DNA of 64,000 bases from Anaerolineaceae bacterium (GTDB lineage Bacteria; Chloroflexota; Anaerolineae; Anaerolineales; Anaerolineaceae), in NCBI GenBank assembly GCA_016841445.1, contig JAENZD010000006.1, positions 1 to 64,000 of the forward strand, written 5' to 3'. Under the pieces are notes generated by a model, which saw nothing but the letters and a program-made list of their open reading frames with translations, did not search any database and was not told where the DNA came from. Within the stretch, counting starts at the first letter, position 1; every line of letters starts with the position of its first letter. Shown one piece after another: positions 38,573 through 62,494 of the stretch. Position numbers and translations under genes: made by a program.

Positions 38573-39526
38573 TTAGCCTTCATACTGCCTTAGTAAATCT
38601 TGTGCTGCCTGTTTCACCCGCTCGATCAATTCAGGGGGGGCAAGGGCTTTGGCATGCTTACCCCAGCTGAGCACCCAACCAGCGGCCCAGTTGAAATCAT
38701 CCACATCGAAACGGACTGTGACCGAGCCATCAGGGTTATCGCTGACCCGCATCCAATCGGTTTCTCGCTCCCGCATTGTCTCAGCGACTTCCCGATCCAT
38801 TTGCACAACGACAACATAGCGGTTTTCCCATGTCATCGTTTTTTCGAGGTAGGCTTTGGCGTCGAAGTCTTGAGGCAGTTTGAATGACCTATTCAAGGCT
38901 TCGAGGTGATTGATACGGTCGATCCGGAAAGTGCGCTTTTCTTTACGCATATGGCAGTACCCGATCAGGTACCAGTTTCCCCAGCGAAAGCTGAGCGCAT
39001 ACGGGTCAACAACGCGATCCGTTTCCATCCTTGAAAAGCTGTGGTAACGCATTCTGACCTGCTTGCCGTCTGCCATGCAATCTCGCAAGGTCGCCATCAG
39101 GCCGTGGAATGGTGAGTAATCCCGAGAGGTACCGGTCATCACCACCAGGCTGCGCTGGGAGCGCTGAACTTCCTCACGGATATCATCCGGCAGGACGTTA
39201 TCCAGCTTGGCGGTCACCCCGGTTACAGCGTCCCGGAAGGGCTTGCCCCAGATATCCTGCACCAGGCTAGCGCCCATATACAGCACGGTCGCTTCTTCGG
39301 GCGTGAAGATCAGCGGCGGGAGCTTATAGGTTCTAAGCAGGGAAAACCCGCCGTAGGGTCCGCGTTCCGCGTACAGGGGAATACCCATTTCCTCCAGCAT
39401 CCCGATATAGCGGTGGACCGTCCGGTTGGAGACATCCAGCTCGGTTGACAATTCCGAGACCGTCCACTGCCTGCGAGATTGAAACAGGAAGATCATGGAA
39501 AGCAAACGCGTGGCGACATTACTCAT
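38573..39526 (-). CDS. WYL-domain transcriptional regulator
   Basis: 317 residues. N-terminal winged helix-turn-helix of the DeoR/YafY type (TVSELSTELDVSNRTVHRYIGMLEEMGIPLYAERGPYGGFSL) and a WYL ligand-binding domain (VRMRYHSFSRMETDRVVDPYALSFRWGNWYLIGYCHMRKEKRTFRIDRI), with a WCX-type C-terminus. It is likely to regulate nearby genes, perhaps the GyrI-like pair, but this is an inference. Confidence 0.9.
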   Translation of the reverse strand: MSNVATRLLSMIFLFQSRRQWTVSELSTELDVSNRTVHRYIGMLEEMGIPLYAERGPYGGFSLLRTYKLPPLIFTPEEATVLYMGASLVQDIWGKPFRDAVTGVTAKLDNVLPDDIREEVQRSQRSLVVMTGTSRDYSPFHGLMATLRDCMADGKQVRMRYHSFSRMETDRVVDPYALSFRWGNWYLIGYCHMRKEKRTFRIDRINHLEALNRSFKLPQDFDAKAYLEKTMTWENRYVVVVQMDREVAETMRERETDWMRVSDNPDGSVTVRFDVDDFNWAAGWVLSWGKHAKALAPPELIERVKQAAQDLLRQYEG

Positions 39527-53533: not shown

Positions 53534-54175
53534 ATGAGACAACCAATGAATAGAAAATCGGAAAAACAATTCTTTACACTAACACCAATAATTATTATCG
53601 CAATCACTCAGATGACTGCGATTATATTAGGAAAATATCTCGAGACAAATGTATATTTTCCAATTATTTTAATTTATTGGTTAGTAATTGTATTATTTCT
53701 CAATAAATACGGATTAAAGAATATTCGGAGATGGCTTACTAAACCTAAAGGGCATTGGGGATGGATGATTCTCGCAGCATTATTAGGGTTTTCATCTTTA
53801 CCCTTATTTATTAGTAATATTCAAGTATTTAGTAACCCTTCAGTGTTAATTCCTCATATTTTATTCTTTCTCATTAATCCTTGGCTGGAAGAGTTTTATT
53901 GGCGAGGATTGCTAACCGATGTAACAAATAAATGGCCCGCATGGGTATCAGTTATCTATTCAACTGTTCTATTCACATTGTGGCACACGGCATTCGCATG
54001 GTATTCATTTGGAGTTCGAGACCTATTTTTCTATATCCCTGTTTTTATTATGGGTATTTCCATGGCACTGATTTATAGAAAAACAAAGAGCCTTTGGTTG
54101 TGCATTGTATCCCATATGTTAATCAATATATTTAATATGGGTATTCCAGTGCTAATGAATTTGATTGAATTGTAA
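53534..54175 (+). CDS. CPBP-family intramembrane protease (island cargo)
   Basis: 213 residues, about six to seven spans. Active-site motifs NPWLEEFYWRGLL (EExxxR), FTLWHTAF (FxxxH) and VSHMLINIF are present. Codon use is far more AT-rich than the neighbours, and no ribosome site is seen before the ATG. It is the only gene of an island of about 1.3 kb. Family members can act in immunity to peptides or toxins; its role here is unknown. Confidence 0.85.
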   Translation: MRQPMNRKSEKQFFTLTPIIIIAITQMTAIILGKYLETNVYFPIILIYWLVIVLFLNKYGLKNIRRWLTKPKGHWGWMILAALLGFSSLPLFISNIQVFSNPSVLIPHILFFLINPWLEEFYWRGLLTDVTNKWPAWVSVIYSTVLFTLWHTAFAWYSFGVRDLFFYIPVFIMGISMALIYRKTKSLWLCIVSHMLINIFNMGIPVLMNLIEL

Positions 54176-54387
54176 ATATACTCATATCTTTACCTTTCTT
54201 CTTAGGAATACTTTTTCCAATTAGTAATCGCAAAGTGGGTACAAAGGCAACTCACCATTCTAATGGCAGTTGACAATTTTTTTGGACAGCATTACAAGTG
54301 AACTTCGAAGAAATTCCTGTCAAAAGAAAACAACGATACTTTCTATTCAATTTTCATGATTTATGTACCTATTGGAATCAATACATA

Positions 54388-54428
54388 ATCCGTGAGGTCG
54401 ATGGTTCGAGTCCATTCGCGCCCATTTT
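54388..54428 (+). repeat. Right attachment-like repeat (tRNA-Val 3' end copy)
   Basis: Exact 41-bp copy of 53086-53126. It carries only the 3' half of the tRNA, so no tRNA is made. With its partner it brackets about 1,302 bp of AT-rich DNA; a likely attR. Confidence 0.9.
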
Positions 54429-54487
54429 ATATTTAATATTCCAATAAAAGAATCACATCTGTGTCGCCAGAAGGGGATGATAAGGTC

Positions 54488-54522
54488 GATGGTTCGAGCA
54501 CTTCGTAGTTCGCGCCCATTTT
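54488..54522 (+). repeat. Second tRNA-derived repeat, right copy
   Basis: Exact 35-bp copy of 53143-53177. The two copies are 1,345 bp apart. Confidence 0.9.
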
Positions 54523-54533
54523 TTAATAAAAAA

Positions 54534-54613
54534 TGTAGGTCGGGATCCGTACTTGATCCCGACAAATGGTTTGTCATGTCAAAAAATGGCGGGTTAAAGG
54601 TCGCAACCCGCCC
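54534..54613 (+). repeat. REP-like palindrome element, type 2 copy 1
   Basis: GTAG followed by GTCGGGATC and its complement GATCCCGAC, then a second hairpin GGCGGGTT...AACCCGCC. The same two-hairpin layout with different loops is at 56242-56338. Tail AGAGT. A stand-alone repeat with no gene; the 54176-54835 gap holds only it and the right island repeats. Confidence 0.8.
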
Positions 54614-54835
54614 TAAGAGTTTCTTGCAATCTTGATTTTCGTGTAGCACCCTGACGAAATCGGATATTTTCTGTGAGCCCGCAGAGATCGCAGACAAGGC
54701 ATTCGTTTACAAACAAGCTTCGACGAGTTCGCGTTTTAACTAACCGGCTTCTGGGTAGAATGATTTTTCCAATTGGGTAGCATTAACCTTTCGGTACGCC
54801 CAGGTCACTTTTGGGGGTGGTGGTTTATGCCGAGG

Positions 54836-55210
54836 TTACTTTGCTCCTTTTACATAGAGATAACCAAACCAAATGGCTAATCCCAGGTGCCCAATGAGCG
54901 GGATCAAGATCAGTAGATTCCCAACGCCCAGTACAAGCCCCCATATCCAGATGATGGAAGCTATTCCGGAGTGGACAATCACACCAAGGATGACGCTGCG
55001 GCGCGCTTCAGAAGGAGAGTCGCTTTTTACACGCCAACAGATTATGGCATATCCCAGCAGTGAAGCACCGAAAATTCTGGCGATAAATTCGCCGCCTTCA
55101 TTCACATCCATACCAAATAACGAAGCGGAGAAACCAGGAGCAAAGGTCAGCAACAGTCCAAATACACCAGCAAAAATAGCACCAATAACAAAAGCAAATT
55201 TTACTTTCAT
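54836..55210 (-). CDS. Small four-span membrane protein, DUF4345-like
   Basis: 124 residues with four predicted spans (residues 5-30, 42-60, 70-95, 97-118) and a short charged loop. It resembles small DUF4345-type proteins; this is a weak assignment. It lies alone between the repeat copies. The 397 bp after it (55211-55607) hold no feature I can name. Confidence 0.55.
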   Translation of the reverse strand: MKVKFAFVIGAIFAGVFGLLLTFAPGFSASLFGMDVNEGGEFIARIFGASLLGYAIICWRVKSDSPSEARRSVILGVIVHSGIASIIWIWGLVLGVGNLLILIPLIGHLGLAIWFGYLYVKGAK

Positions 55211-55607
55211 TGAAAATACGCTTTCTCTAAGAGGTCATTTTAGAATATGCAATAGACATGTTGTAGCAGTTGTGGAGATTAAAAATGGAAAACATATGCA
55301 TTTAATTCTGTCAAATGCGATCTCCTTTCAATTATGGACAACGGGGGTGTTTTTCAGTGGGAGTGTTTGGGATTAACTACACTGTAGCACGAATAAAATC
55401 CGGAGTCAATTCGTATAGGAATGGTGTTTGAGAAAATCAGGCATTTTGCAGGGTGTGGGCTTTATTTTGTACGCACCAAAAAATCCAGATGTGCTTGATG
55501 GCGGGAGGTGAATGCAAACGAATTGTTGACACAGGGGGATGACTTCGATATATAATTTGGTGTGGCTATTTATGGTAATAAAAAAATGATATTGAAAGGC
55601 AGTAGAG

Positions 55608-56216
55608 ATGAGTAAAGCGTTGCGAAGGATTGTGTTGGTTAATTTCATCATTCTGCTGGCGATACTTGCTTGTTCAATTGGACCGTATAACATTGAGCGA
55701 GATGATGACTCTTCTGATTCTGATGAAACAGATAAACGAGATGAATCTTCCGATCCCGCGAAGACACCACGCGTAACAAGAACTGAAAGGCCAACAAAAA
55801 CTCCCCGCACCGGTCCCTCCAATACGTCTGAACCCATACTTGTCTACACCGCCACGATCAAGCCAACCGAAACGCCATCAGGACCCTTCGAGTATATTGT
55901 GGTATCAGGTGATACTTTTGCGGGTATCGCTCTGCAGTTTGGTGTGACGGTTGAAAGTATCCTGGAAATCAACGGTCTTTCGAATAATTACATTTATGAA
56001 GGGCAAGTACTCCTGATCCCGCAGCCATCGACCGGGTCACCATTGGGACCGATTGAATATGTTGTCAAATCCGGTGATACCTGTGCGACAATTGCTGCAG
56101 CCTTTGGAGTCTCGATTCAAAATATCATCTGGACCAGTAATCTTTCAGGGGACTGTATCATTTATGAAGGGCAAACGCTTCTGATTACCCGCCCAACACC
56201 CACGGTGACACCATAG
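55608..56216 (+). CDS. LysM-domain lipoprotein
   Basis: 202 residues. A lipobox (LAILAC) ends a hydrophobic signal peptide at about residue 22. An acidic, then Thr/Pro-rich linker (residues 28-95) is followed by two LysM repeats, EYIVVSGDTFAGIALQFGV (about 97-140) and EYVVKSGDTCATIAAAFGV (about 150-195). LysM binds peptidoglycan or other N-acetylglucosamine polymers, so the protein is probably at the cell surface. No catalytic domain. Confidence 0.85.
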   Translation: MSKALRRIVLVNFIILLAILACSIGPYNIERDDDSSDSDETDKRDESSDPAKTPRVTRTERPTKTPRTGPSNTSEPILVYTATIKPTETPSGPFEYIVVSGDTFAGIALQFGVTVESILEINGLSNNYIYEGQVLLIPQPSTGSPLGPIEYVVKSGDTCATIAAAFGVSIQNIIWTSNLSGDCIIYEGQTLLITRPTPTVTP

Positions 56217-56241
56217 AGCGGTTGAGGGGGGCTAGCAGGCT

Positions 56242-56338
56242 TGTAGGTCGGGATCTGCACGCCAGCACCCGAAGGGTGTGATCCCGACAAATGTATTGAG
56301 ACACCAATTAATGGCGGGTTGAACACCGCAACCCGCCC
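56242..56338 (+). repeat. REP-like palindrome element, type 2 copy 2
   Basis: TGTAG, then GTCGGGATC and GATCCCGAC with a longer loop, then GGCGGGTT...AACCCGCC. Same order and spacing as 54534-54613 while the loop sequences differ. Confidence 0.8.
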
Positions 56339-56370
56339 AACGAGTCTCCTTATGCCTTTTTCGTTAGTTA

Positions 56371-57231
56371 TTAATTACAGACCATTTCAGTTATATCATT
56401 GATTACTAAGAGCCACTGATTATAGATTGAAATTAACCTTTCTAAATCTTTTCCAATTAGATTTTTTCCAAAATTACTTTCAGATAATTGCGAAAATAAG
56501 CTATAAGCTAAGTGTAAAGATTCAACCAGCTTTTTCCTTTGAGTTTCCGAATTTGTTAGTATTTCTGCAACTAAATTTCTATCATATTCTTTCTTAAATT
56601 CTAAACTTGTTACTGCATTGCCTGAATAATTTTTTCGTGCAATATGAACTAAATTTCCCCAAATTTGATTTAAAACAGCTCTGAGATCCATGGCACCAGT
56701 ACTTATTTTTAGATTACCTGCTTTGCATCTATCTATACTTTCAATTGCTATGAGAAATAGATCATCAAGATTTGGGAATAACTTAATCAGTCTTTGAGGA
56801 ATATTTTCACGATGAGATACATTTTTCACGTGTTCCTCAATAACACTCGACACATCATTTATCCAATCTGGCTTTGTCTTTTCGTTTGACTCAGAGTTAA
56901 CGATTGTTAAAATAACTTCAGTAAAAGAGGTGGTTGAATTTATGGCATTAAGGTCTGTTGTAAATTGTTTTTCATTAATATCAGGAATCAATCCTAATGG
57001 ACCAGTAAGATATTCATTGGTCCGTGATTGTTGTAAAGATAATCTAGGATATAGTTCTTCAATGATATCCTCTGGCATTGCATAAATCATATTGAATTTT
57101 GCTTCTGCTGCTTCTTTGTTCATTTGTATAGTTGAGATTATTTTTGTGAATTTATTGGCTCTTTCTAAAGATTTATCGTATTCTTTAATTTCATCGTCAA
57201 TTGAACCTAAAATCTCATTTTTCTTACTCAT
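56371..57231 (-). CDS. AT-rich protein of unknown function
   Basis: 286 residues from ATG 57231, preceded by GGAGG. The N-terminal half is charged and helical (KKNEILGSIDDEIKEYDKSLERANKF), the rest is also mostly helical with DLRAVLNQIWGNLVHIARKN near 200. No known motif seen. Its AT-rich codon use differs from the chromosome, like the island gene at 53534. A restriction-enzyme relic is next to it, so it may be part of a decayed defence locus; this is inference from position only. Confidence 0.7.
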   Translation of the reverse strand: MSKKNEILGSIDDEIKEYDKSLERANKFTKIISTIQMNKEAAEAKFNMIYAMPEDIIEELYPRLSLQQSRTNEYLTGPLGLIPDINEKQFTTDLNAINSTTSFTEVILTIVNSESNEKTKPDWINDVSSVIEEHVKNVSHRENIPQRLIKLFPNLDDLFLIAIESIDRCKAGNLKISTGAMDLRAVLNQIWGNLVHIARKNYSGNAVTSLEFKKEYDRNLVAEILTNSETQRKKLVESLHLAYSLFSQLSESNFGKNLIGKDLERLISIYNQWLLVINDITEMVCN

Positions 57232-57294
57232 ATTTCCTCCAAGAAAACTATAATTAGTAAAATTCAATGGTCACCCTTAAAAATTGAAATTAGA

Positions 57295-57528
57295 TTATTT
57301 TTCTCCCTCCACGATCTTGATCTCCTCTTCCGTGAGCCCATAGAGCTCGTAGACCAGGCGGTCGATTTGACTGTCAGTGGCGGCGATTTCGCGCTCGAGC
57401 TGCTCCCGCTCGAAGGGGTTGAGGAACTCCTGGCGGAGCTGGGCTTCGTTGTAGGCGTGGGAGCGGTAGGCGCCTTTGTTGTCGTCAAAGCGTCCGACGA
57501 GGTCTCGGATGATGTCGGGAATGGGCAT
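57295..57528 (-). pseudogene. Internally deleted Eco57I-like restriction-modification gene relic
   Basis: 77 residues from ATG 57528. Residues 1-38 (DIIRDLVGRFDDNKGAYRS...YNEAQLRQEFLNPF) match the conserved start of Eco57I/type IIG enzymes, and the last 35 (REIAATDSQIDRLVYELYGLTEEEIKIVEG) match their conserved C-terminus. The 800-1000 residues between, with the methylase motifs, are missing, yet the frame stays open. This looks like an in-frame internal deletion. Confidence 0.8.
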
Positions 57529-57647
57529 GGCTTTCCTCCTGTGGTGGCATGCGGATAGACCTATTGAAGCATAGATGGGGGTGAAAAATGGGATCTCCGG
57601 CGTTGCATGCAAAGCCGCTACGGGGTATTTTGTTTGATGGGTGGGTC

Positions 57648-57673
57648 AGACGCCCCCGCCGGGGGATCTCTAC
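57648..57673 (-). repeat. REP element, minus strand
   Basis: Read on the minus strand: GTAG, AGATCCCCC, then GGGGGCGTCT, an imperfect hairpin. It resembles the element at 59428-59453. Both have 5' GTAG. Confidence 0.6.
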
Positions 57674-57686
57674 GAGAGGAAAATTC

Positions 57687-57809
57687 GTAGGGTGCGCTCT
57701 TGTTTTGAGCGCACCTTTTATGGATGAGTAATGGTGCGCAGAACCCTCACGCCTTACAGGCTCAGGGCAGGAGAAACCCATTCCGCTTCGTTACAGGGCA
57801 GGCTGCGCA
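57687..57809 (+). repeat. REP/BIME block, left of the RAYT gene
   Basis: GTAG then a perfect hairpin GGTGCGCTC...GAGCGCACC (57691-57716), followed by a second long hairpin GGTGCGCAG...CTGCGCAC (57733-57809). 33 bp of the first part and 39 bp of the second recur exactly on the right of the RAYT gene. The 5' GTAG plus palindrome is the standard REP form. Confidence 0.88.
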
Positions 57810-57836
57810 CAATACAGATTGGGATATAATTTTTAT

Positions 57837-58388
57837 ATGCCTGAATATCGACGCGTCAAAAAAGAAGGCGGCATTTATTTCTTTACTCTCGTAACCTATC
57901 AGCGACAAAAATTATTCTTTCCCTCTGAGGTGAGAAAGTTGTTGATACAAACGGTTGAAGAGGTCAGGGAATTTCACTCTTTTGAGATGATAGCGTATTG
58001 TGTATTGACTGATCATGTTCATTTCCTTTGGCAGATGCCGGAACAGGAAAGTGATTACGCCATGCGAATTGGATTAATTAAACGACGATTTTCTAAGAAA
58101 TATTCACCTTTATATGGGGAGACTCTTCAGAGAACAGAATCGCAATTGAAGCGTCGTGAATTAACAATATGGCAGAGGCGATTTTGGGAGCATTTTATCC
58201 GTGATGAAATTGACCTTGGGCGTCATATTGAATATATCCATTACAATCCCATCAAACATGGTTTGCTAAAGCGAACGGTTGATTGGGATTGTTCAAGCTT
58301 TCATGATTATGTCAGTGATGGCGTTTATGATTCGGATTGGGGGATATCATACGAGATGGATGAACAACAATATCGATTTGGTGAATGA
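57837..58388 (+). CDS. REP-associated tyrosine transposase (RAYT)
   Basis: 183 residues from ATG 57837. MPEYRR start, GGIYFFTLVTYQRQKLF, the DHVHFLWQMP motif (HUH-type His-x-His) and HIEYIHYNPIKHGLL, whose Tyr is the expected nucleophile. RAYTs are single-domain Y1 endonucleases related to IS200/IS605 transposases that act on REP palindromes. REP blocks flank it on both sides within 30 nt. Confidence 0.93.
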   Translation: MPEYRRVKKEGGIYFFTLVTYQRQKLFFPSEVRKLLIQTVEEVREFHSFEMIAYCVLTDHVHFLWQMPEQESDYAMRIGLIKRRFSKKYSPLYGETLQRTESQLKRRELTIWQRRFWEHFIRDEIDLGRHIEYIHYNPIKHGLLKRTVDWDCSSFHDYVSDGVYDSDWGISYEMDEQQYRFGE

Positions 58389-58403
58389 AAAATAATTTAA
58401 TTT

Positions 58404-58509
58404 GTAGGGTGCGCTCTTGTTTTGAGCGCACCTTTTTTGCTCACACCTTACAGGCTCAGGGCAGGAGAAACCCATTCCGCTTCGCAAAAGGGCAGGCTGC
58501 GCGCCCTAC
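58404..58509 (+). repeat. REP/BIME block, right of the RAYT gene
   Basis: The GTAG hairpin recurs exactly (58404-58436 equals 57687-57719), as does the second block (58446-58484 equals 57752-57790). The right end is an inverted REP whose minus-strand GTAG is at 58509-58506, so the block has outward-facing ends. Confidence 0.88.
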
Positions 58510-58555
58510 GTGATGTTTTTTGCTTGTTTTGGGCATACCTTTTTGTGAAATTGAT

Positions 58556-58585
58556 GGTGCGCAGAAAAGAAACTGCGCACCCTAC
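58556..58585 (-). repeat. REP element, minus strand
   Basis: Minus strand: GTAG then GGTGCGCAG, 8-nt loop, CTGCGCACC. A perfect 9-bp palindrome with 5' GTAG, the same family as the RAYT-flanking REPs. Confidence 0.85.
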
Positions 58586-58618
58586 ATCTTCGAGCGATGG
58601 CAGCTTTTTCGTAGATAA

Positions 58619-59320
58619 TTATTCGTAGAATGCCGCCAGCCAGTCCTGAATCTCGGATAAGGGGACTTCTCCACCTTCATAGGTCCGGTGCCCTGCCTTT
58701 GATGTGCTGGTGGGGCATTTGGCAGGTTCCGATCCTGTGATCGTCGTTTTTGCGATGTAACGGCCTGTGGCAGCCTCAAAGATTTCAATTTCAACGTAAT
58801 GCTGCAGCCGCTTGATGGATACACCGCCGCTGGCGTATTTGCAGGTTTCAAGACCTTGCTGGGCTTGTTTCTGAACACAGGCAACCAGTTCGATGGTCCC
58901 AAGCTCCCTTGACTCCATGCCCCATTGAGAGAGGATGGCGTACGTGAGGTCATGAGATGTCCCATCCGGGCGCAGCAGGACCATAGGGTGCGGCCCGGGA
59001 GCCGCAAGGTTGTAATTTGATGTTCCCGGGATGCCATTGATTTGACCGGTTGTCCCAAAGGCGCAAAGGGGAGCCAGGGATATGAGCAGGGGGTCTCCGA
59101 GTTGATCCAGCTCTGCCCGGGCGTACTTAATATCGGGCCGTTCGATCAAGGCTTTCACCAGATTGCCAACGGGATCATCCGATTGAAGGATCTGGTCCAC
59201 CTCAACCCGATCACTTTTTTTCCGGCTTTCCGAATTGACGATGTCAACAACCGCGAAAATTGCGAAACCCACCATAACAACCGCAAAAAGGATATAGTAA
59301 ATATTGTTATTCTTATTCAT
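58619..59320 (-). CDS. Membrane-anchored protein of unknown function
   Basis: 233 residues. One N-terminal span (YYILFAVVMVGFAIFAVVDIV) and then a soluble domain outside by the positive-inside rule, with Cys at about 84, 148, 158 and 199 that might form disulfides. No motif I recognise. The start has a weak ribosome site. Confidence 0.7.
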   Translation of the reverse strand: MNKNNNIYYILFAVVMVGFAIFAVVDIVNSESRKKSDRVEVDQILQSDDPVGNLVKALIERPDIKYARAELDQLGDPLLISLAPLCAFGTTGQINGIPGTSNYNLAAPGPHPMVLLRPDGTSHDLTYAILSQWGMESRELGTIELVACVQKQAQQGLETCKYASGGVSIKRLQHYVEIEIFEAATGRYIAKTTITGSEPAKCPTSTSKAGHRTYEGGEVPLSEIQDWLAAFYE

Positions 59321-59427
59321 CAGGACCGTCCTCGGTTTAACCCTTTATGATCTTATTTTATCATTAATGAAATTAATTTTGATGATTTTGCAGTGGATAA
59401 AAACGAGGAAAATATGGTAGATGTATG

Positions 59428-59453
59428 AGACGTCTTGGTGGGGCGTCTCTACG
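59428..59453 (-). repeat. REP-like element, minus strand
   Basis: Minus strand: GTAG, AGACGCC, loop, GACGTCTC. Imperfect hairpin with the 5' GTAG of the family. Confidence 0.6.
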
Positions 59454-59563
59454 CGGTTGGAGGGGGAGAACAGGGCTATCCTCCAGTGGTAGCGTGCGGA
59501 TAGGGTGCGTGTAGTATAGATGATATTGTTTGTAGGGTTAGTTGCAGGAGGTATGAGAGGAAA

Positions 59564-59866
59564 ATGCGGTTGGGAACTTCAAACAACCGGCTGGTTTTAG
59601 CTAAAGTGACACCAGAGCGCATCTTAACATTTTATGAGCAGCCTGACCCCGAAATTCCAACGGTTTTACTGGATCGAGATGGGCGTTTTATCAGGTCCAC
59701 CGGGCGGATATTAAACCCAACACTGCCCCCTATTAGGGAAAGGGCAGCTTTTTCAGGCACGAATTGGGTAGCCTCGCCTTGGGATAATCACCGGCTTCCT
59801 ACCTGCTTTATTCAACATGTGGAACTGAACTGTCTGACCGGGAAGGTGATGATTAATGAAAACTGA
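59564..59866 (+). CDS. Hypothetical small protein, doubtful
   Basis: 100 residues from ATG 59564 with GAGAGGAAA upstream. No signal peptide, no known domain. It may be a remnant or a real small gene; I cannot tell. Confidence 0.35.
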   Translation: MRLGTSNNRLVLAKVTPERILTFYEQPDPEIPTVLLDRDGRFIRSTGRILNPTLPPIRERAAFSGTNWVASPWDNHRLPTCFIQHVELNCLTGKVMINEN

Positions 59867-60023
59867 AAGGTGACAGGTTCCAGCAGATTTAAATATGATG
59901 ATAAAATTCAAATCTAGGGTTTAAGTGGCTAAGTCAGCGTGGTACCGGTGATCAATTAACATCAACTTAGGCCTTTCGATGAAAAGATTATTATTGATTA
60001 GGATAAAGTATTGACTTTGAGGA

Positions 60024-61358
60024 ATGACAATTAAGATGCCAAAAGGAACATATTATTTTCCGGAACATTTCTTATGGGGGACGGCTACCGCAGCTGCACA
60101 AGTTGAAGGGCGCAACCAGAACAGCACCTGGTATGCCTGGGAAAAGGAGGAAGGGCGGATCGTCAATAGTGATTCAGCCCAGGTGGCCTGCGATTGGTGG
60201 AGCGGACGGTGGCGTGAGGATTTTGATCGAGCCCAGGCTGCAAATCAAAATGCACACCGCCTTTCCATTGCCTGGAGCCGCATCCAACCGGAGCCTGACC
60301 GTTGGGATGAAGATGCCCTGGACAGGTACCGGGAAATGCTGACCGGTCTTGTTTCGCGTAAAATGACCCCGATGGTCACCCTGCATCACTTCAGCGAACC
60401 CCTATGGGTAGCCGAGATGGGTGGATGGGAAAATGAAGCTATCCCCGATCTGTTTGCAGCATTTGTGCGTAAAGCCGTAGAAGCGCTAATGCCCTACTGC
60501 AACCTGTGGGTGACGATCAACGAACCAAACGTTTTTGCCTATGGTGCTTATTTGGAAGGAAATTTCCCTCCAGGAAAGCAAGACCTGAAAACAGCGGTCG
60601 GGGTGATGGCGCAGATGGTTCGTGCCCATGCCCGCGCTTATCATACCATCCATGAACTGCAGCCTGAATCTCGGGTGGGGATTGCTTTAAATGTCCGCGG
60701 CTTTAAACCGGCGACGTGGTCTCCGCTGGATAAGCTGGCAGCCAAAATTTACTCAAATTTATTTAATGAAGCATTTCCAAAAGCACTTAAAGACGGTGTT
60801 TATCAGCCATTTTTGCGAAAGGAACAGATACCGGAAGCAGCGGGGACGCAGGATTTTTTGGGTATTAACTACTACACCAATGAATTGCTTCGGTTCAACC
60901 CATTTGCGGGTGGCGGGATGTTCGCGACCGGATCTTTTCCCAAAAATACCGCTTTAAGCGAATCAGGCGATATCGCCAATATACCCATGGGTCTTGCAGA
61001 AAGTGTGGTGTGGGGAAATAAGTTCGGTGTGCCAATGATCATCACCGAAAACGGGATTGATGATTCAAAGGATGCGATTCGCCCACGCTATCTTGCAGAG
61101 CACCTGCATGCACTTTGGAAGGTGATGAATGGGAACTACCCGGTGGAAGGGTATTTTCACTGGACCCTGGTGGATAATTTTGAATGGGAGCGCGGCTGGT
61201 CGCAGCGGTTTGGTTTGTGGGAACTTGACCTGGAAACCCAGGCGCGCATCAAGCGGCCCAGTGCTGAACTTTATGCTGAGATCTGCCGGACGAATGGGAT
61301 CTCTGCGGATGCCGTGGAGAAGTACGCCCCGGATGCGATGCCGGCTCTTTTCCCTTAA
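60024..61358 (+). CDS. Beta-glucosidase, glycoside hydrolase family 1
   Basis: 444 residues, full length. N-terminal FPEHFLWGTATAAAQVEG is the family signature; the acid/base Glu is in WVTINEPNVFAYG (about residue 167) and the nucleophile Glu in MIITENGID (about 344). No signal peptide, so cytosolic, using imported sugars. No transporter or regulator adjacent. A short ATG further in (M5, at 60036) is possible. Confidence 0.95.
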   Translation: MTIKMPKGTYYFPEHFLWGTATAAAQVEGRNQNSTWYAWEKEEGRIVNSDSAQVACDWWSGRWREDFDRAQAANQNAHRLSIAWSRIQPEPDRWDEDALDRYREMLTGLVSRKMTPMVTLHHFSEPLWVAEMGGWENEAIPDLFAAFVRKAVEALMPYCNLWVTINEPNVFAYGAYLEGNFPPGKQDLKTAVGVMAQMVRAHARAYHTIHELQPESRVGIALNVRGFKPATWSPLDKLAAKIYSNLFNEAFPKALKDGVYQPFLRKEQIPEAAGTQDFLGINYYTNELLRFNPFAGGGMFATGSFPKNTALSESGDIANIPMGLAESVVWGNKFGVPMIITENGIDDSKDAIRPRYLAEHLHALWKVMNGNYPVEGYFHWTLVDNFEWERGWSQRFGLWELDLETQARIKRPSAELYAEICRTNGISADAVEKYAPDAMPALFP

Positions 61359-61648
61359 TCTTAGACCTAAGATGAAGTGAAAAACCAGCGATGCAATAAA
61401 ACATGAATACACCAGGTACCATCATGGTTTTTATTGCCCGCATTAATCTTGACATTGACAAACGAAAAGATCTTAATGAATTTTTCCCAAAACCAAGGGC
61501 GAACAGCTCCAAGGATTTGTTTCATAAAATACGCAGGGTTAGGTTGGTGGGGTAAAATTTACGAGTTATATTAATTTCTTAATAATTTCTCATATTCATG
61601 TATACTATTAAGATAATTCTTTAGTCTATTAGAGAGCCAGGAGAGTTG

Positions 61649-62494
61649 ATGAAAAAGGTAGCCATAATAACAGACAGCAGCGCCTATTTACCGCCAGAAG
61701 TCGTTAAAGAATTGGATTTGCATGTAGTCCCTCTGACACTGCATTGGGATGATGAAAGTTACCGGGACGGAGAAGATATCCGGGCTGAGGAATTTTATAC
61801 CCGGCTGGCGCAGTCCAGCACAATCCCGACCACCAGCCAGACAACGGTTGGTGAATTTGACCGGCTTTTTAAATCCTTGCTCGATCAGGATTATGCCGTG
61901 TTTGCCATGCTCATTTCCAGCGGCATTTCCGGCACAGTGGAATCTGCAATCCAGGCGAAAACCCATTTTCCTGATGCGCCGTTAGAAGTCTTCGATTCTC
62001 AGCTTGTTTCCATGGCTTTGGGTTTCATGGTTATGACCGTCGCTAGAGCAGCAAAAGAAGGTGCCAATCTCGCTGCTTGCAAAGCGCTGGCTGAAGCAGT
62101 TTACCCGAAAATAGGTGTCTATTTCACCGTTGATACACTAAAGTACCTCAATAAGGGCGGGCGGATTAACACAGCGAAGCGGCTGTTGGGATCTGCATTG
62201 AACCTCAAACCGATCATGGAGATCCGTGATGGGAAGATCGAACTGGTGGAATCTGTTAGATCGCGCAAGAAAGCAGTGAACCGCATGCTTGAACTGGTTG
62301 AACGGGATATCGCTGACCTGACGCCTGTTTCGATTTCAACATTCCACGCTGCAGCTGATGAAGATAACAAGGCATTAATGGAAGAAGCTGTTGCGCGTTT
62401 TCAGCCTGTGGAAACAGTGACAACATTCGTGAGCCCGGTTATTGGCACGCATACCGGCCCGGGAACATTAAGCATTGCTTATATGGCTGGATGA
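61649..62494 (+). CDS. DegV-family fatty-acid-binding protein
   Basis: 281 residues from ATG 61649, AGGAGAG upstream; the TTG one codon earlier is a weaker start. Start AIITDSSAYLPPEVV and TSQTTVGEFDRLF, ISSGISGTVESA, GRINTAKRLLGSALNLKPIM are typical. DegV/FakB proteins hold a fatty acid for FakA kinase. No fakA here. It is convergent with the YdcF-like gene, with one base between the stops. Confidence 0.93.
   Translation: MKKVAIITDSSAYLPPEVVKELDLHVVPLTLHWDDESYRDGEDIRAEEFYTRLAQSSTIPTTSQTTVGEFDRLFKSLLDQDYAVFAMLISSGISGTVESAIQAKTHFPDAPLEVFDSQLVSMALGFMVMTVARAAKEGANLAACKALAEAVYPKIGVYFTVDTLKYLNKGGRINTAKRLLGSALNLKPIMEIRDGKIELVESVRSRKKAVNRMLELVERDIADLTPVSISTFHAAADEDNKALMEEAVARFQPVETVTTFVSPVIGTHTGPGTLSIAYMAG

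Follow-up and report, generated by a model that had tools for sequence, protein, structure and literature searches.

The REP hairpins of the RAYT encoded in the window (the whole stretch of 64,000 nucleotides analysed here) are probably chosen in large part by residues of the protein that read single stem positions, as judged from sequence comparison of this REPtron with its relatives. The locus itself is an ordinary low-copy REPtron of a known kind, and the new part is a covariation between residues of the protein and bases of the REP at four positions. The same comparison leans, with less assurance, towards a modular code used by RAYTs of a widespread group, in which residue 2 would be matched to base 6, residue 102 to base 7, residue 106 to base 9, and residue 107 to base 11, and by which the target could be predicted and re-aimed. 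The covariation was computed, and from it we infer physical contact and causality; it is well supported for bases 11 and 6, weaker for base 7, and mixed for base 9. The features of the locus are as follows, with the evidence for each in brackets.

57837..58388, + strand: RAYT (TnpAREP) of 183 aa (NF047646, Y1_Tnp, match to 4er8_A, AlphaFold2/Foldseek, invariant columns)
57687..57715, + strand: REP 1, GTAG followed by the stem GGTGCGCTC / GAGCGCACC with a 7-nt loop (sequence, folding, covariance model)
58404..58432, + strand: REP 2, identical to REP 1 and in the same orientation (sequence, folding, covariance model, alignment)
58556..58585, - strand: REP 3, inverted, GTAG followed by the stem GGTGCGCAG / CTGCGCACC with an 8-nt loop (sequence, folding, covariance model)
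57733..57815, - strand: worn REP with a long loop, head GTAT, 8-bp stem GTGCGCAG/CTGCGCAC (sequence; fold z -1.9)
58440..58509, - strand: second copy of the long-loop block, 90% over 70 nt, head GTAG (sequence comparison, folding)

The open reading frame of the RAYT is intact and free of stops, and its product scores 169.5 bits against the curated RAYT model NF047646 REP_Tyr_transpos (cut-off 80) and 32.4 bits against Pfam Y1_Tnp (cut-off 23). It starts with MPEYRR and ends with FGE, and carries in between a DHVHF HUH motif (H60, H62), the segment S102-Q-L-K-R106-R107-E, an IWQRRFWEH motif, and Tyr133. H60, H62, and Y133 are invariant among 28 aligned RAYTs, and the window RAYT retains every HUH, Tyr, and IWQRRFWEH residue that these 28 proteins have in common; by homology, Y133 is the putative catalytic tyrosine. 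T17, also invariant in this alignment, was taken as the RAYT-specific N-terminal Thr of Nunvar 2010 (PMC2817692), and the NP(L/V)(R/K)xG motif given there appears as NPIKHG, with Ile for Leu/Val. At the C-terminal end, a GE or GD lies within the last 10 residues in 55 of 92 training RAYTs. The nearest solved relative according to phmmer is 4er8_A, the E. coli TnpAREP bound to a REP hairpin (E 6e-28), which is also the best Foldseek match (E 2.4e-15) of an AlphaFold2 model with a mean pLDDT of 89.4. A short helix at residues 101-105 is modelled with lower confidence (block means 81 and 76).

REPs 1 and 2 each fold into GTAG, a 9-bp stem, and a 7-nt loop at -11.4 kcal/mol (z -7.8), and REP 3 has a perfect 9-bp stem at -11.6 kcal/mol (z -6.6); these folds were matched by none of 200 shuffles. 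The stem changes between REP 1 and REP 3, and those between both RAYT loci of the genome, are compensated so that pairing is kept. Allowing at most one mismatch, GTAGGGTGCGC occurs five times in the window, four times at the locus and once at 39353, against a mean of 0.53 and a maximum of 2 in shuffles. The gene is flanked by GTAG-headed palindromes, two of which are mutually inverted (REPs 1 and 2 on the + strand, REP 3 on the - strand). Both the model score and the folding bear out the first-pass annotation, which had placed at 57837-58388 a RAYT with GTAG-headed REPs on both sides and extra inverted REPs; its reading of a RAYT with cognate GTAG REPs is also supported, and the paralog and most of the related RAYT loci inspected have the same layout.

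The long-loop element is present as two copies, at 57746-57815 and 58440-58509. The loop of the upstream, worn REP is about 60 nt long and contains the module CCTGCCCTG...GGGTT, and the downstream block has lost its other stem arm, which falls in a 23-nt gap; neither block folds far better than its shuffles (z -1.9 and +1.6). In REPs of a genus relative (G013, locus L126) the module recurs in shortened form, CCTGCCCTGGTGAGGGTT. Searched with at most three mismatches, the 20-nt core of the block has 20 matches in the genome versus 4 for a reversed control, so the block belongs to a wider small repeat. This small repeat, with the core CCGCTTCGNNNCAGGGCAGG, was observed in the long REP loops, at G000:C3:221812 and C3:581178 of the window genome (G000), and elsewhere.

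At the scale of the genome (3.35 Mb), a covariance model finds 16 REP hairpins at E<1e-3; its seed was 13 hairpins of this genome, so that 13 of the matches are the seed and three are new. Three lie at the window RAYT, five at a paralog on contig 6, and eight, away from RAYTs, at seven other places; the earlier reading had been open to refutation had the hairpins occurred only here, which did not hold. The family is thus repeated, but very low-copy. The paralog (L035, G000:C6:130184-131183) is 50% identical to the window RAYT and has the same REP arrangement. Three of its REPs read GTAGGGTGCGGTC and two, inverted, read GTAGGGTGAGGTG; part of them falls in a 101-nt direct repeat with a spacing of 223 nt. 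Inverted REP pairs are formed by REP 2 and REP 3 and by the paralog REPs at C6:130879-131183, and away from RAYT genes at C3:1516806-1516885 and, more weakly, at C5:61852-61928; they are too few for a repeated unit (REPIN/BIME). The genome also holds other Y1 transposase matches. A weaker one (L039, G000:C8:79439-82615, 44.4 bits) is framed by a perfect 30-nt inverted repeat, CGCGTAGGGGCGGACCTCCGTGTCCGCCCT, at 1051-1080 and 1749-1778, and resembles what Di Nocera 2013 (PMC3733652) calls the 'TIRYT' type. Two more (L042, G000:C2:261650, and L043, G000:C3:868689) have equal scores and model positions and are probably two copies of one insertion sequence.

Among the neighbours of the window RAYT, 55608-56216 encodes a protein with two LysM stretches, and 60024-61358 a glycosyl hydrolase of family 1; the three scanned ORFs nearest to the RAYT have no Pfam match, and no known RNA family reaches its Rfam gathering score within 57000-59500. 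When the ORFs of 54001-62000 were compared (E 1e-4) with those lying within about 1.2-1.5 kb of nine other RAYTs, eight in genus relatives and the paralog, only the RAYT itself was common, so inheritance in place is unsupported.

Other readings of the locus can be weighed against this layout. A Y1_Tnp domain with hairpins on both sides would also suit an ordinary IS200/IS605 insertion sequence with palindromic ends and no RAYT, a reading made extremely improbable by the score of 21.2 bits with the IS200 equivalog model (cut-off 55) against 169.5 with the RAYT model, by the two full hairpins that adjoin the gene in direct orientation with a third inverted, and by the outcome of searches that took one flank or the RAYT family as query, in which no second copy of the unit turned up but only the paralog of 50% identity. 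The first-pass annotation had deduced a recent duplication or gene conversion from the exact identity of the flanks. Exact matches of 33 nt (57687-57719 = 58404-58436) and 39 nt (57752-57790 = 58446-58484) are indeed present where it had placed them, along with others of 14 and 13 nt, yet they are only pieces: the full blocks (57687-57815 vs 58404-58509) align with 98 matches, 8 mismatches, and 23 gap columns, so that they differ at 8 of 106 aligned positions and by an indel of 23 nt. A duplication is therefore not dated, and what counts within the identical part is the REP, whose identity between flanks is also expected from constraint by the RAYT; so recent an origin is rather doubtful. The first-pass annotation had also called the pair active-looking; the gene and its three hairpins are intact, in a family of very low copy number. 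The RAYT might instead be a relic with an intact frame, whose REPs are no longer moved and whose hairpins persist for another reason, as terminators or mRNA ends. The scarcity of the hairpins, half of which sit beside RAYT genes, and the worn GTAT head and lost arm in the flanking blocks would fit this view. It nevertheless appears unlikely, given that the residues invariant among the 28 RAYTs are intact, that REP 2 repeats REP 1 exactly and both pair without a mismatch, and that stem substitutions, whether they set REP 3 apart from REP 1 or one RAYT locus apart from the other, are compensated.

Relatives of the window REPtron were collected for comparison. The 96 training loci comprise 80 from a scan of named genomes (the best 80 of at least 581 relatives), 15, the window included, from a scan of 61 genomes around the window's own, and the paralog. 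Four were dropped for early stops (L051, L113, L114, L124), leaving 92, of which 89 have a REP in the final count; two of the training proteins (L096 and L139) are identical. With the window and its paralog left out, the octamer GTAGGNTG lies within 600 nt of the RAYT in 88 of 94 training loci, at a density of 3.17 per kb near the RAYT versus 0.14 per kb beyond 1 kb (minus-strand loci were left unturned in this count and L131 is misplaced in it; the other flanks are symmetric). The base after GTAGG varies together with its partner in the 3' arm (GGTG/CACC, GATG/CATC, GTTG/CAAC). Among the best 80 of at least 581 relatives and the further loci, the hosts include Chloroflexota, Pseudomonadota, Planctomycetota, Cyanobacteriota, Thermodesulfobacteriota, and others. 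A search of the phylum at E<=1e-30 found relatives in 4 of 400 genomes, and viral contigs gave one relative. Two kinds of unusual locus were seen: in a Desulfobacteraceae genome (L102), near-unbroken REP hairpins of about 49 nt, GTAGGGTGCGCAAGATGGGATTTTT..., have stems far longer than at other loci, and three RAYTs (L046, L136, L137) are flanked by repeated GTAGGGTGGG heads, most of them with no simple hairpin adjoining.

Together with two held-out sets, these loci give 144 RAYT-REP pairs (89 training, 36 and 19 held out), that is, the window and 143 relatives; the REPs were assigned by proximity, by which a neighbour's REP can be borrowed. Four residues covary with four bases in these pairs. 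Arg at residue 107 goes with C at base 11 in 62 of 74 cases, and other residues in 6 of 69 (Fisher 6e-21); Arg at residue 106 goes with C9 in 41 of 52, and others in 4 of 90 (7e-21); Thr2 goes with A6 in 14 of 16, and others in 2 of 114 (6e-15); Ser102 goes with T7 in 121 of 122, and others in 8 of 19 (1e-10). Base 6 follows the N-terminal letters, G6 occurring with M-(P/S/A)-x-YRR, A6 with M-T-x-YRR, T6 with M-x-YRR, which is one residue shorter, and C6 with M-(V/R)-x-Y. Residue 2 predicts base 6 correctly in 126 of 133 cases versus 94 for always G, a count in which only Thr2-A6 and Pro/Ser-not-A6 had been set before the second held-out set was fixed, the other base 6 letters being post hoc and the Met-T6 and Val/Arg-C6 rules derived from all data; the Ser102-T7 rule came from training and the first held-out set. 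For base 9, where no prediction is made if residue 106 is other than Arg, Lys, or His, the rule is right in 119 of 135 cases versus 86 for always G. In training, residue 106, the X of the motif S-x-x-K-X-R-E (Arg106 in the window), is Arg in 33 of 33 RAYTs with C9 REPs and Lys or His in 46 of 50 with G9. All applicable rules are right at 109 of the 144 loci, versus a mean of 23 and a maximum of 34 in 200 random re-pairings. Residue 107 also correlates with base 12. Other columns were tried for T6 and rejected: residue 109 was concordant in about 0.7 of 5 independent pairs, residue 170 in almost none, and residue 183 ran opposite to Glu in 3 of 4.

The rules were also applied to loci held out from training, largely paralogs in the training genomes and hence separate genes, not separate organisms. 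For set 1, the base 9 prediction was fixed from training before paralogs in the named genomes already scanned, together with a few further relatives, were taken; ORFs were found in 91 of 92 loci, 37 were dropped for at least 85% identity to training (among them L164, identical to L046) and one as a duplicate, and 53 were kept, including L191, which has an inner stop and should have been dropped under the selection rule; its intact part was used. Sixteen of the 53 score below 150 bits and were excluded from the 144 pairs. As fixed, the rule gave the correct base 9 in 21 of 27 cases, a count that includes L244, a distant transposase with a non-aligning segment. When loci without the octamer were counted by their most frequent GTAG hairpin, set 1 had C with Arg in 7 of 10 cases and with Lys or His in 2 of 22 (p 0.001). 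For set 2, all four rules were fixed beforehand, and 43 ORFs in 47 loci yielded 22 kept and 19 with REPs. The base 11 rule held (Arg107 with C in 7 of 8, others in 2 of 11, p 0.0055), as did that for base 6 (Thr2 with A6 in 5 of 5, others in 1 of 12, p 0.001). Base 7 was unconfirmed in this set (Ser with 15 T and 1 C, others with 2 T and 1 C, p 0.3). At base 9, Lys or His went with G in 14 of 14 cases and Arg with C in 0 of 4, a failure due to every REP of the set having G9. Both sets taken together give 15 of 19 versus 2 of 35 for base 11 (p 5e-8; rule right in 48 of 54 versus 37 for always 'not C'), 7 of 8 versus 1 of 41 for base 6 (p 7e-7), and 7 of 14 versus 2 of 36 for Arg with C at base 9 (p 9e-4), where the rule is right in 39 of 50 cases versus 38 for always G.

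The window genome and its genus show the matches at close range. The window RAYT has Pro2, Ser102, Arg106, and Arg107, and its own REP has G6, T7, C9, and C11; the paralog has Ala2, Ser102, Arg106, and Gly107, with G6, T7, C9, and G11. Both fit. The base 11 rule holds for 10 of 11 RAYTs of the genus, including 9 of 9 in the window's own clade; of the two from another clade, one fits (L046, which is genus locus L164) and the other breaks the rule (L157, Arg107 with T11). Three RAYTs of genome G001 (L168-L170) are without the residue 102-107 segment and stand outside this count. Exceptions at base 9 cluster in the same genus: residue 106 is Arg in all nine RAYTs of the window's clade and yet four of them (L126, L127, L129, L130) are exceptions, so base 9 is read loosely there. 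L163 carries both kinds of REP, and two Massilia loci (L309, L330) are further exceptions. The clearest one is L130 (G012:C53), where 20 GTAGGGTG repeats surround one RAYT and 17 of them are GTAGGGTGGG despite Arg106.

The main alternative to residues reading bases is shared ancestry, RAYT and REP being co-inherited so that a clade-specific residue tracks a clade-specific base without contact. REP states do follow the RAYT tree, with 8 changes at base 6 versus at least 15 in 200 shuffles, 17 versus at least 20 at base 9, and 8 versus at least 12 at the stem start, and the correlation of residue 107 with base 12 fits this explanation too. Independent pairs, drawn from a tree built without the four tested columns, speak against it. 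For residue 106 and base 9, about 16 of 26 are concordant and 0 discordant; for residue 107 and base 11, about 15 of 19 and 0.01; for residue 2 and base 6, 8 of 11 and 0; and for residue 102 and base 7, about 7.7 of 9 and 0, so that practically none is discordant. These pairs rest on an uncertain tree, as 13 of 88 inner branches of the training tree are strongly supported; with such branches only (treekit), four base 9 pairs are left, in which residue 106 agreed in 2 and differed in 0, too few for a test. Moreover, each named column is the best for its base, and other columns of equal ancestry associate more weakly, clearly so for bases 11 (0.77 vs 0.34 for the runner-up), 9 (0.75 vs 0.49), and 6 (0.86 vs 0.42), and less so for base 7 (0.70 vs 0.58). 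Finally, residue 107 and base 11 switch together within the window's clade and within one genome. Shared ancestry by itself is thus a quite improbable account, and reading of stem bases by single residues is preferred.

Such reading could work as follows. As a single-strand DNA endonuclease of the HUH/Y1 class, the RAYT would bind the REP strand when this is single-stranded and folded, and Tyr133 would cut and rejoin it. By analogy with E. coli TnpAREP, in which strand 1, the surroundings of strand 4, and the C-terminal Gly-Glu supply the residues that hold GTAG (Corneloup 2021, PMC8266576), the IWQRRFWEH segment and the GE at the C-terminus may hold the GTAG head. Base 6 would be read by residue 2, which lies two positions ahead of Tyr4, base 7 by Ser102, base 9 by residue 106, and base 11 by residue 107. 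Residues 102, 106, and 107 share a short segment that follows helix 3 and directly precedes the IWQ strand. This segment may reach into the lower-stem groove, where Arg107 could bind the guanine opposite C11 and Arg106 the one opposite C9, and a Lys or His at residue 106 could bind G9 itself. A search for solved RAYT structures found none with the 102-107 segment on DNA. In the lower stem of the E. coli REP, T11 and G32 are contacted and matter (Corneloup 2021, PMC8266576), the numbering of that paper being taken as GTAG = 1-4 because this brings T11 and the A12A13 bulge into register with the E. coli REP listed in Table 1 of Nunvar 2010 (PMC2817692).

If true, a nuclease acting on single-stranded hairpins would follow a code of one residue to one base, and the target of a RAYT could be predicted from sequence and re-aimed by single substitutions. 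Genomes often hold several RAYTs, and a sequence-level rule would help to assign REPs to them and to explain switches of REP family, and would give a small hairpin-specific nuclease with a changeable aim. The rule is simple and testable at the bench, and the window genome offers a natural test pair, two RAYTs that differ from each other in residue 107 and, in step with it, in base 11 of their REPs. Bench work on how RAYTs tell their own REPs from others has covered few proteins, namely three duos (Corneloup 2021, PMC8266576).

That RAYTs and REPs have co-evolved is known at the level of whole trees or groups (Nunvar 2010, PMC2817692; Corneloup 2021, PMC8266576). A residue-to-base rule was not found in literature searches or in the parts covered of PMC2817692, PMC3686654, PMC3733652, PMC6006769, and PMC8266576, and the 4er8 structure paper (2012) or the Bertels 2017 RAYT classification might mention parts of it. 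A close study is Corneloup 2021 (PMC8266576), in which the lower-stem bases T11 and G32 of the E. coli REP are contacted and two RAYT groups co-evolved with their REPs are proposed; it deals with three RAYT-REP duos and, in the parts covered, gives no residue-to-base code. E. coli TnpAREP (PDB 4er8), the best match in both sequence and fold, shares the IWQ.RFWEH motif and the flanking GTAG hairpins and may share the group 2 type with a C-terminal tail, but lacks the segment that carries residues 102-107, which falls in an alignment gap. Its REPs have a bulged stem, GTAGG(acg/cat)GATAAG (Nunvar 2010 Table 1, PMC2817692), whereas those of the window have GTAGGNTG and a perfect stem. The GTAG repeat families of Di Nocera 2013 (PMC3733652), which include Chloroflexi, have in common with the window a GTAG head, a stem of 6-13 bp, variable loops, a RAYT often nearby, and monomers as well as dimers, and differ in that the window family is very low copy. 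More than 100 REP copies per genome are usual in Nunvar 2010 (PMC2817692), Table 1 of which also has 20-40, compared with the 16 of the window genome. The Haemophilus REPs of that same paper, GTAGGGTGGGCTT...AGCCCACC, are RAYT-linked and have the octamer head GTAGGGTG and a perfect stem as in the window, but carry G9 where the window REP has C9.
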